A stretch of DNA of 64,000 bases from NCBI GenBank assembly GCA_029248525.1, contig JAQWJE010000043.1, forward strand, positions 124,001 through 188,000, written 5' to 3'. A model generated the notes under the pieces. It was given only the letters and a program-made list of their open reading frames with translations. It had not been told where the DNA came from and did not search any database. Below, piece after piece: positions 13,793 through 42,785 of the stretch (within the stretch, counting starts at the first letter, position 1; the number at the start of each line of letters is the position of its first letter). This DNA comes from Candidatus Binatia bacterium. Lineage in GTDB: Bacteria; Desulfobacterota; Binatia; UBA12015. Both the position numbers and the translations under genes were made by a program.

Positions 13793-16147
13793 TCATCCCC
13801 CCAGAAAGATCTTGATACCGCCCTGGATCGCTCGTGGCAGACCCGGACGAGCGCCATAGGGACGCCGCGAAACCATGTACTCTTCGCCAAAGATATTGGC
13901 CGCCGTCACATAGAACCGCGCCCACTCCACCGGGGACCAACCGATGGCAAGGTCTGTAATAAACGCGGAATCGATCCTCTCATTTGCCGGAATCGGCCCC
14001 TGCCCAGCCACATCCCGCATCCGATCAACGTACCGCAAGGAAACGGTGAAATCCCAGTTGTCGGACAACAAACCGACGTTGGCTGTGATCAAATGAGGAG
14101 GGACGTAGGGAAGCTCATCGCCAGCTTCCACATCTCCGAAGATCTGGCTTGCGGAAGAGAACGTCGATTGAAAATCGGAGTGCGTGTATGTGTAAACGAG
14201 AGAAACCGGTACCTCGAAACTCCATGGCGTTTCAAAGTCGTATGCGAGGTCTACCTCCACGCCGAACACATCGACATCTCCCCCGTTGAACTGATCATCG
14301 ACTTCGCTGGGATCGCAGCCCGTCACCTGTCGGCAACTCGCCAGCAAATTGCCGTAATCATTCCAAAACCCGACCACCTGCGCATTCGCCTGCTCGGCGA
14401 CAAAACGAGCGCCAAATTCGTAGTTGACGCTCTCCTCCGGCTTTGCCGTCTGCGACTGCCCGGGCGCCACGGGACTGAAACCCCTGTGCACCCCTGCCAG
14501 AACGCTCCAATAGTCTGTCAGGAAGTAGACAGCACCAATTCCGGGAATCACGACTTGCTGATTATTCCTCAAGGCAGCAGGCCCCTCCCCCGCTGTTTCC
14601 TTGAACCAGGTCTCGATGAGTTCCACGCGAACGCCGGCCGTGACGAGCAAGCTCTGCCACTCCATCTCGTCTTCGAGGTAGAGCGCCCATGCCCTCGCCT
14701 TGCCGACGCTATCCACGATCTGGATCGGCGGCCCGCCGAGAGGTTCGGGCTGTCCGTCAAACATTTCATACGGCTCTTCGGTATGATCTCGGCGAATCTG
14801 GTCATAATGCAGTCGCACGCCGCCGTTGAGCGTGTGCACGAGTGGTCCGGTCTCGAAATCCAGATCCCCTTCCAACTGGATGCCCTGAGAAACAAATTCC
14901 CGATCATTCGTTCCGATCAGGAGTCTTTCCAACCGATTGCTCGTATCCTGATCGCCCTTCAATACCGCCAAAAAAACCGCGTTGATTCCCGTCGGATTCG
15001 CGAAGATATCCCGCAGCGAAGGCGCTCCTCTGGCAAAACTGTTGAGCTTGCGCCATTTGCGTTTGAAGTCATGTCGATAGCCCGTCAAGCGAAGATCCAG
15101 CCGGTCTTTCCAGCTCAGAACTTGGGAGAATTGATATTGCTGGCGATGCCACTCCATCCGAGCGAGCCGGCTGGCCGCATAGCGGCGGTAGGGGTTCTCG
15201 GCAAAGTCCGCATCCGAAATCCCCAGATAGGTCTCGTTGGATCCCTCGTCCGAATAGCCCAGCTTGATCGAATTCATCAAGAAAAGATCCGTGCCGAGCT
15301 CGAAGCCGGCCTCCCCCTTGATCGTGACCTCGTTTCGGTCAAAGCCCGTATTGCCCCCACCATCGAGTTCCTTGAAACCGCTGCTCTCGAGATGGACGCC
15401 TTCAACCAGCAAGCCCAAATTTTCCCAAGTTCCGCCAGCCCACCCATGGAACTTTCCGTAGCCATAGCTTCCGGCCCCGCCGTCGAGGGCTATCGTCGGC
15501 TCGATCGGGATAGGGCGACTCACGAAATTGACGGCCCCTCCGATGGTTTGCGGCCCGAACCGAACCGCTGCCGGCCCCTTGAAAACTTCCACGGCGACCA
15601 TCCGGGTCATCATCGGAAAGTAGTACGCTGCGGGGGCAGAATAAGGTGCCGGGCCAAAGAGCACAGCGTCTTCCATCAAGGTGATCTTCGAGCTTCTCTC
15701 GGCGTTTACTCCCCGGATACCGATGTTCGGACGCAGGCCATATCCGTCTTCCTCGCGCAGATAGACACCGGGAACCATGCGGAAGATGCTATGCGCATCG
15801 TCGTATTCGAAGCGCTCAAGCGCTTCCTGCTCGATGACGGTTGCTGACCCGGCGATCCTTGCGGCATCCATCTTCTTGCCGACAATACGGACCTCTTCGA
15901 TTCGTCGCGGCGACTGCCGCACCTCAGGAGGTTCTGTCACTGCAGAGCTTGTATCAACCGGCGCTGCCGCAGAAGAGGCCGACGGCGGCGCTGCTTGTGT
16001 TGCGGTCTCGGCCGTATCCGAAAATACGGGATCGGCAGCAACCGAAGGGTCGGCCTGCGCCGTACCGGACATGAGGGCCAACACGATCAGAATCAGCGCA
16101 ACGAGACGATAGTGGAATTCATTCATTTCAAACGGCCTGAGAAGCAT
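13793..16147 (-). CDS. TonB-dependent outer-membrane receptor (FecA-like)
   Basis: A 784-residue outer-membrane receptor. After a signal peptide (hydrophobic segment ending TAQA) and a Ser/Ala/Pro-rich spacer, a TonB-box-like EEVRIVG occurs near residue 85. The plug domain follows with IRGVNAERSSKI and GPAAVRFGPQTIGGAVNF, then a 22-strand-like barrel ending in a short aromatic C-terminal strand. Plug motifs are closest to ferric-citrate/siderophore receptors. The ATG at 16147 overlaps the HTTM stop (TAATG), suggesting coupling; MNEFHYR at 16129 is an alternative start. It belongs to the DUF4856-imelysin-HTTM locus, so an iron complex is the likeliest ligand. Confidence 0.9.
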   Translation of the reverse strand: MLLRPFEMNEFHYRLVALILIVLALMSGTAQADPSVAADPVFSDTAETATQAAPPSASSAAAPVDTSSAVTEPPEVRQSPRRIEEVRIVGKKMDAARIAGSATVIEQEALERFEYDDAHSIFRMVPGVYLREEDGYGLRPNIGIRGVNAERSSKITLMEDAVLFGPAPYSAPAAYYFPMMTRMVAVEVFKGPAAVRFGPQTIGGAVNFVSRPIPIEPTIALDGGAGSYGYGKFHGWAGGTWENLGLLVEGVHLESSGFKELDGGGNTGFDRNEVTIKGEAGFELGTDLFLMNSIKLGYSDEGSNETYLGISDADFAENPYRRYAASRLARMEWHRQQYQFSQVLSWKDRLDLRLTGYRHDFKRKWRKLNSFARGAPSLRDIFANPTGINAVFLAVLKGDQDTSNRLERLLIGTNDREFVSQGIQLEGDLDFETGPLVHTLNGGVRLHYDQIRRDHTEEPYEMFDGQPEPLGGPPIQIVDSVGKARAWALYLEDEMEWQSLLVTAGVRVELIETWFKETAGEGPAALRNNQQVVIPGIGAVYFLTDYWSVLAGVHRGFSPVAPGQSQTAKPEESVNYEFGARFVAEQANAQVVGFWNDYGNLLASCRQVTGCDPSEVDDQFNGGDVDVFGVEVDLAYDFETPWSFEVPVSLVYTYTHSDFQSTFSSASQIFGDVEAGDELPYVPPHLITANVGLLSDNWDFTVSLRYVDRMRDVAGQGPIPANERIDSAFITDLAIGWSPVEWARFYVTAANIFGEEYMVSRRPYGARPGLPRAIQGGIKIFLGG

Positions 16148-41039: not shown

Positions 41040-42434
41040 TTAACGACAGCGCAGGGAGAGGGTGTCGCGATCGACGACCTTGCCGGCTTTCCGCGCCTTG
41101 AGGCGAATAGTGGTGCGTTTTGCTTTGGCAACCTGCACCTCGACAGCTTGCGAGCAGGCGGGACCGCCGCCCAGAATCAGATCCATATTTGCCTGCAATG
41201 CCGGGAAGCCACCGTCGCTGGTCATCTTCGGGCGCCGACGAATTTCGATGGTATCCAGATCTGCCTGACAAGCCGTATTGTCGGGATTCACCAACCCGAC
41301 ACAGCCACCAACAACAAATGTGCAGGTGCCGTCGGCTGCGCCGTCCCGATCACAGGACACATCACCCTCGGTGCACTCCCAGAGGTTCTTGCCACGGCCG
41401 CGGGCATTCTTCGTCTCGACACCGCCGAAGAGTGACGCGTTACAGTCACGGCGGCCACGACCAAGGCCGGTCATTCCGGCCAGCGGCGTGAGGTTGGCGA
41501 CCGCGGTGCAGGGTTCGTCGGCTGGTTGGCAGTATCCTTCGACAACACCGACCTGACCCGAAATCGGATCAATCCCGATGCCGCCCGAAAAACCAAAACC
41601 GCTGGCCAGCGGGGTCGACGTCCCATTGGAATCGATCGAATCCACAATGGAGGTGAAATCGCCACCGTATCCACCCGTCAGGAGCAAGGCACCCGTTCCA
41701 TCAAAGGCATGGTCCGCCGAGCCCGCGCCCTCGATCAGATATCCCACGAAAGCGAAGGTGGGCCCGGAAAGGTCCATGGAATATTCGCGGACACTTCCCG
41801 CGAAGCTGGTGGCATCGACATCGCCGACAAAGAGGTTGCCATTAGGTCCAATCTGGATGCCCGATGCATAACCGAGGTCATTGATCACGGTGGTCACGGA
41901 ACCGGTTACAATATCAACCAGCTCGACAGTGCCCGGAGATCCGACGGAATTCGTAACCAGCAAGGTATCACTATCGGCCAAAACCAATCTCGAAGCATTC
42001 ACGATCGATCCTGCCGCCGCAATCTCCAGGGTGCTTGCGTCCGTAGCCGTCGCCGACAGGGCATTCGGCAATTCGTAGACTGTGTCTCCGGTCGTCGAAC
42101 CGGCTTGCTCGCCGCCGTTATCCACGAAGAATAGCGAGCCACTGGCGGCATCAAAAACGATTCCGGCCACAGAATTCAATTGCGTGACCACCGTGGTTTG
42201 CGTGCCGTCGGCGGCAACGCGAATAATCTGCTGGGTAGCGGCGCCAAAATCACCAATAGCGACAAAAAATCCGTTTCCGGCGTAGGCGATATCGCCAGTG
42301 GGTACCGCCGGGGAGATATCGGTTTCGCCGATCACGTATCGCTGGGATTCGAGAGTGACGGCGTCAGCAACCGTGGGGAAAAGAGAGAAAACGAGCGATA
42401 GAGCTCCAAGAGTAAAAAGTTTCAAACCAGGCAT
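41040..42434 (-). CDS. Secreted beta-propeller-like protein controlled by a cobalamin riboswitch
   Basis: A 464-residue exported protein with a Sec signal (cleavage near VADA, residue 25). Residues about 40-320 hold five or six propeller-like blades of 40-60 residues with recurring pattern: GDIAYAGNGFFVAIGDF, AGIVFDAASGSLFFVDN, ASGIQIGPNGNLFVGDV, DHAFDGTGALLLTGGY, SGGIGIDPISGQVGVVEG. A Cys-rich tail (about 325-464) has at least eight Cys (GYCQP, RRDCN, LWECT, VSCDR, GTCTF, GGCVG, ACQAD, ACSQ), suggesting disulfides. AAAAGGA precedes the ATG. The upstream 155-base cobalamin riboswitch implies expression falls when B12 is plentiful, so a role in B12 capture, by analogy with the Bacteroides propeller BtuG, is the leading hypothesis. 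No sequence proof. Confidence 0.75.
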   Translation of the reverse strand: MPGLKLFTLGALSLVFSLFPTVADAVTLESQRYVIGETDISPAVPTGDIAYAGNGFFVAIGDFGAATQQIIRVAADGTQTTVVTQLNSVAGIVFDAASGSLFFVDNGGEQAGSTTGDTVYELPNALSATATDASTLEIAAAGSIVNASRLVLADSDTLLVTNSVGSPGTVELVDIVTGSVTTVINDLGYASGIQIGPNGNLFVGDVDATSFAGSVREYSMDLSGPTFAFVGYLIEGAGSADHAFDGTGALLLTGGYGGDFTSIVDSIDSNGTSTPLASGFGFSGGIGIDPISGQVGVVEGYCQPADEPCTAVANLTPLAGMTGLGRGRRDCNASLFGGVETKNARGRGKNLWECTEGDVSCDRDGAADGTCTFVVGGCVGLVNPDNTACQADLDTIEIRRRPKMTSDGGFPALQANMDLILGGGPACSQAVEVQVAKAKRTTIRLKARKAGKVVDRDTLSLRCR

Positions 42435-42557
42435 TCGGGTGTTCCTTTTAGCTGCTTCCCGCAGCGTCCGGATCTCACGAGGGCCTGGTCAGGTGGGCTA
42501 CAAAAAAATCGCCCCAACCCAGAACCCGAACTCCCGCGGGATCTATCGATATGATTT

Positions 42558-42712
42558 CCCCGGCAGCCAGGTTTCCTGACTTGTCAGCATCCTAATCGTG
42601 CCGCCTTCCCATCCTGATGGACAGTGGCGCTATCTGGCACTTTCGTTCCGACTTACAGTGGCGGGAGCCGTGCTGGACTTGAACCAGCTTCCCTTACAAA
42701 CCGCCAGGACTG
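42558..42712 (-). promoter_or_regulatory. Cobalamin (B12) riboswitch
   Basis: Read on the minus strand, all core elements of the class are present in order: AAGGGAAGCTGGTTCAAGTC (P3 region), CCCGCCACTGTAAG, a second GCCACTGT arm, GGGAAGGCGG, and the B12 box AGTCAGGAAACCTGGCTGCC near 42563-42582. It lies 124 bases upstream of the secreted propeller gene and downstream of the lipase gene stop (42786), all on the same strand, so the propeller gene is its target. The leader then has a T7 run (42502-42508) and a GCTGC/GCAGC hairpin just before the Shine-Dalgarno; which of them is the expression platform is not clear. Confidence 0.95.
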
Positions 42713-42785
42713 TCGATTGGTTAACAGAGCGCCGACAGCCCGCAAGCGGTCCCGGAGACAACCTTTCACATCATCACGGCGCCCC

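Follow-up and report, generated by a model that had tools for sequence, protein, structure and literature searches.

Does an apparently exported protein of predicted propeller fold, encoded behind a cobalamin riboswitch in a Candidatus Binatia bacterium, take part in the capture of vitamin B12, and is it then a counterpart of BtuG? Descriptions of surface proteins that capture B12 come mainly from gut Bacteroides. BlastP searches on 313 gut genomes led to the report that BtuG is exclusive to Bacteroidetes (PMC6143338). The locus lies in a window of 64,000 nucleotides, which is the whole stretch of DNA analyzed here. Its gene belongs to a family that we call family A. Families A to F were delimited by profiles grown from one to seven seeds, and the main comparison set is formed by 58 genomes (the source genome and its relatives).

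The window gene, its leader, and its protein

The model RF00174 matches the minus strand over its whole length (model positions 1–189) with 90.9 bits, where the gathering score is 31.5 (E 3.3e-21, calculated over both strands of the window) (Table 1). A search with this model had been proposed in the sequence-only reading, and the complete riboswitch described there, upstream of and co-oriented with the gene, is borne out by it. On this sequence–structure match the aptamer is assigned as a cobalamin riboswitch, and a response of expression to cobalamin is predicted. It is separated from the ATG start codon, on the same strand, by 114 nt, and a Shine-Dalgarno sequence AAAAGGA (42449–42443) lies 8 nt 5′ of the ATG. 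In the minimum free energy fold, ACCAGGC (42489–42483) pairs with GCCUGGU (42432–42426); the second arm overlaps the G of AUG and the stem would enclose AAAAGGA. This AUG-sequestering stem, not significant against shuffles (z −1.4), may tentatively be the expression platform. An intrinsic terminator as the switch mechanism was also sought in the leader, where none was found, and that candidate was rejected.

The gene preceding the riboswitch encodes a secretory lipase (PF03583); downstream, the strand continues with a gene for an unrelated EcKL/APH-type kinase. The inverted repeat after the stop codon, together with this unrelated neighbor, suggests that the gene is transcribed alone, as a monocistronic transcript.

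Table 1. Coordinates of the features discussed (window positions, except for the two fusions)
Feature	Position	Strand	Basis or remark
Family A gene (predicted secreted NHL-type propeller with Cys-rich tail, 464 aa)	41040..42434	-	ORF, family profile
Signal peptide, residues 1–25, cleavage between ADA and V, SPase I type, without lipobox	42360..42434	-	read by eye
Propeller domain, ~residues 46–319, six units of ~45 residues	41478..42299	-	NHL PDB profile match, blade-to-blade HHalign
Cys-rich C-terminal module, residues 326–464	41043..41459	-	genome searches
13-bp perfect inverted repeat, 4-nt loop, just past the stop codon	40996..41025	-	no T-run after
Complete cobalamin riboswitch aptamer (RF00174)	42549..42739	-	covariance-model match 90.9 bits
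Possible expression platform, ACCAGGC pairing with GCCUGGU	42426..42489	-	minimum free energy fold
A-tail/D fusion	L099:5656-7272		
A-tail/D fusion	L085:12413-14206		

The protein starts with MPGLKLFTLGALSLVFSLFPTVADA, followed by VTL beyond the cleavage site. Judged by eye, this is a Sec/SPase I-type signal, in agreement with the Sec export proposed earlier; it contains no Cys, and no lipobox is read in it. Many Cys residues occur beyond residue 325. The module that they mark is possibly an anchoring or sorting domain. Many of the weaker family A matches span only ~residues 305–464, that is, the Cys-rich tail. A Cys-rich module of ~140 residues is appended to many otherwise unrelated, large ORFs of this class.

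As a single sequence, the window protein has no match in Pfam or the PDB, and two single-sequence AlphaFold2 models have a pLDDT of 33 and 39, too low for use. At the level of the family, the profile matches NHL propellers in the PDB: the PknD sensor domain (1rwi, E 2e-7), TRIM3 (5e-5), the Pizza designs, and Brat chains. Units 1, 3, 4, and 5 are mutually related (HHalign probability 87–93%, the pair 1–4 excepted), and units 2 and 6 have no relation to other units detectable by HHalign. The propeller fold, which the sequence-only reading had proposed as a class, is thus well supported by the family profile, and the length and register would give six blades.

Family A across genomes

Family A is present in 36 of the 148 genomes of the class. 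Among 297 genomes sampled from the phylum, we observe it in none outside the class (E 1e-20), and the family appears confined to this class in searches spanning its phylum. A single-sequence search of genome contigs with the window protein returns one match, a copy from the same lineage; relatives from viral contigs give an alignment too diverse for patterns. In the open-access literature, we found neither a description of family A nor one joining a cobalamin riboswitch with an NHL repeat.

An RF00174 match occurs just upstream and on the same strand in 17 of 20 family A loci. Two of the three exceptions are genes split by contig ends, and their 5′ halves carry RF00174 on another contig; the third lies within a riboswitch-headed cluster (G019). 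Among 10 family A loci from further genomes, nine have the riboswitch, and one (L189) has no RF00174 within its 1.5-kb flank. Nearly every family A gene with a complete context is predicted to be under riboswitch control. Conversely, there are 81 cobalamin riboswitches in the 58 genomes. The first family gene after them is a TonB receptor in 44 cases, A in 21, and the BtuG homologue D in seven; six lead to another gene or to none of these, and three reach a contig edge. Most loci lie in draft genomes that are split into many contigs, but the pattern returns in numerous independent genomes belonging to several families.

Two other arrangements occur. Riboswitches without an uptake family downstream are found in L073 (G052:C19), L091 (G023:C57), L133, L134, and L135. 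Tandem cobalamin riboswitches are present in L105 (G013), L107 (G053), and L111 (G046), with one riboswitch before a ~255-aa protein with a TonB-like N-terminus and the other before a TonB receptor.

The fullest gene order is riboswitch, A, B, TonB receptor C, D (the BtuG homologue), E (BtuF), and F (BtuC). In eight families of the class the gene after A is B, and in four (f1, f6, f11, f15) C comes next after B. In the operon of G043 (L113), PF00593/PF07715 mark C as a TonB receptor, E has PF01497, and F has PF01032. Among NCBIfam models, E scores best with BtuF without reaching the cut-off; C matches the B12-receptor model alongside several for siderophores, and none of these matches reaches its cut-off. 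The D profile matches crystal and cryo-EM chains of BtuG in the PDB (8okv at E 6e-4, 8puj, 8p97, 8bai, and 3dsm, with E from 6e-4 to 6e-3; identities of 8okv, 8p97, 8bmx, and 8blw as in PMC10404256). Family B has 25 members (e.g., L113:8903-9475 and L104:6419-7087, alignment A2). Its best PDB match, a weak one, is to residues 437–498 of 8blw_B (E 0.074), which fall in the BtuH-like C-terminal part of BtuG1 (PMC10404256), and it matches the model of the LIC_13355 lipoprotein of Leptospira with E 1e-8, under the cut-off. Family B is probably another B12-related binding protein. Its assignment to DUF4465 was rejected, since it has no Pfam match even at E 10.

Recurrence of cobalamin riboswitches, or neighboring uptake genes, next to homologues had been suggested as a test of the B12 link; both are present, with riboswitches upstream and operons with TonB receptors, BtuF, and BtuC. 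Two further features concern the position of A. In G030 (L123), a D paralogue occupies the slot of A, the order being riboswitch, D, B, C, D. The f8 genomes encode an in-frame fusion with the A-type tail placed before D (L099, E 3e-20; L085, E 1e-16), and A itself comes after B. The recurring riboswitches and B12-uptake operons, the replacement in the slot, and the fusion of the tail together make family A very probably a component of B12 acquisition.

The BtuG homologue D, at L113:12094-13089, is also found in L098, L101, L106, L110, L116, L118, L120, L121, L123, L131, L132, and others. It adjoins TonB receptors, mostly behind cobalamin riboswitches, and does so outside Bacteroidota.

Only two cobalamin riboswitches score above threshold in the source genome, and each precedes a family A gene. 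The second family A copy, on contig C57, is 42% identical to the window copy and has, by eye, a lipobox LVGC. It is followed by a 797-aa protein opening with a B domain (L104:4799-7192), in which repeats and a proline/threonine-rich linker come after that domain. A TonB receptor and D (L169:7522-8802) form a pair on contig C49. Control of this BtuB–BtuG pair by a weak cobalamin riboswitch was rejected, since RF00174 gives nothing there up to E 1. The window copy is solo: neither B nor a TonB receptor adjoins it, and B, C, and D are far off in the genome. A TonB-dependent receptor (~817 aa), encoded elsewhere in the window at 13886-15898 on the minus strand, resembles family C, the receptor of the B12 operons, only weakly. 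For corrin-ring synthesis, CbiC was not found in the source genome; CobS is present, with seven matches to B12-binding domains. This combination fits corrinoid import and salvage; the absence of CbiC, as one marker, is consistent with import and is no proof of auxotrophy.

Proposed role and alternatives

The explanation that we favor overall, with some confidence, is that family A acts outside the cytoplasm as part of a system for scavenging B12. At low intracellular cobalamin, the riboswitch would permit expression of the mRNA. The protein would be exported by Sec and would then fold as an NHL-type propeller with its Cys-rich module. At the outer surface, or once released, it would capture corrinoids, probably together with the BtuH-like B, and could hand them on to C, the TonB receptor, with D, the BtuG homologue, as its cap; BtuF and BtuC would then move them inward. 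Direct binding of a corrinoid by family A is rather probable. The window copy, which presumably retains the family function, would be a stand-alone, unlipidated extra capture protein, with the core receptor pair encoded elsewhere in the genome. Its own role is less certain, because it is a solo, fast-diverging, and non-lipidated paralogue. More tentatively, family A can be seen as an undescribed corrinoid-binding propeller, unrelated to BtuG and working beside a BtuG homologue, with the window copy as a secreted, unanchored scavenger, able perhaps to work at a distance from the cell.

NHL propellers such as those of TRIM and Brat bind other macromolecules. Family A, which matches them, could accordingly be an accessory scaffold that brings B, C, and D together, or holds them in place, at the cell surface and does not bind corrinoids. 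Such a role would suit the nearly constant pairing of A with B and the tail module shared with D in f8 genomes. On the other hand, in G030 it is a BtuG homologue that replaces A, and the window copy and its riboswitch lie isolated, at a distance from B, C, and D, which is easier to reconcile with a soluble binder. We consider the scaffold unlikely.

Still less likely is an extracellular enzyme, an SMP-30/NHL-like hydrolase that would free corrinoids from their carriers or remodel them before uptake. Some family members do weakly match Pfam SGL and Arylesterase (best E 1e-4), and PF08450 (SMP-30/gluconolactonase) is weakly matched by five of 23 members (best E 8e-4) with no match in the window protein; DN and GD pairs, which vary little or not at all in the family, could be metal ligands. 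However, no family A member is shown passing an enzyme-family cut-off, and the neighbors in the operons serve binding and transport.

Among 33 propeller domains placed in a maximum-likelihood tree, the window copy clusters with the f1 copies (98/97) and has the longest end branch of all (1.03), and it keeps 59 of the 80 strongly conserved positions (74%), the lowest of 19 full-length members. That it is a neofunctionalized or decaying paralogue, which has kept the riboswitch and no longer serves B12 uptake, would agree with this branch, with its solo position, and with the loss of conserved residues (e.g., D162N, G170V, G186D), but it is the least probable of these alternatives given an intact ORF and signal sequence, a complete riboswitch, and a further record of the lineage (L033) that is 100% identical over at least the final 195 residues.

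The operons described here, under riboswitch control in a separate lineage, combine a BtuG homologue with a BtuH-like domain and a further propeller family. If a role in the extracytoplasmic scavenging of B12 is correct, extracellular B12 capture would be a wider bacterial strategy. Family A, so far without annotation, would gain a role, with named genes to test.

Comparison with known systems

The only NCBIfam match of the window protein is NF033206 (ScyD/ScyE), over 53 residues with E 4e-4 and 20 bits for a cut-off of 80, and the protein is not a member of that family. The closest solved fold to family A by profile, the PknD sensor domain, is the extracellular part of a kinase and has, unlike family A, no link to B12. 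The B12-binding lipoproteins BtuH and BtuJ (DUF4465; PMC8941943, PMC13398666) are, like A, extracytoplasmic accessories of riboswitch-controlled B12 loci; they are not propellers, and it is the neighbor B, not A, that resembles them.

The comparison with BtuG, the surface beta-propeller of Bacteroides (PF16819/DUF5074; PMC6143338, PMC10404256), has two sides. The BtuG-like character suggested as possible in the sequence-only reading stands for the export signal, the propeller class, and the regulation, but not for descent. There is no PF16819 match in A and no BtuG chain among the PDB matches of its profile; between A and D, HHalign gives 11%, with no detectable homology. As D is the BtuG homologue, the assignment of A as the BtuG of this lineage was rejected, and since A and D are usually found together, A is no mere replacement for BtuG. 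Family A is of the NHL type with a length of about six units and apparently six blades, whereas BtuG is of the YVTN/DUF5074 type with seven. Its invariant residues are mostly Gly, Asp, and Asn, in contrast to the Trp and Tyr that narrow the BtuG pocket (PMC10404256). Further, the window copy has a Cys-rich tail and is without the lipobox of a surface lipoprotein such as BtuG, although its C57 paralogue has one by eye; and it stands outside any btuB-type operon, in which other family A members are found. Like BtuG, family A is a predicted exported propeller under riboswitch control, and at the level of the family it belongs to operons with a TonB receptor, BtuF, and BtuC.
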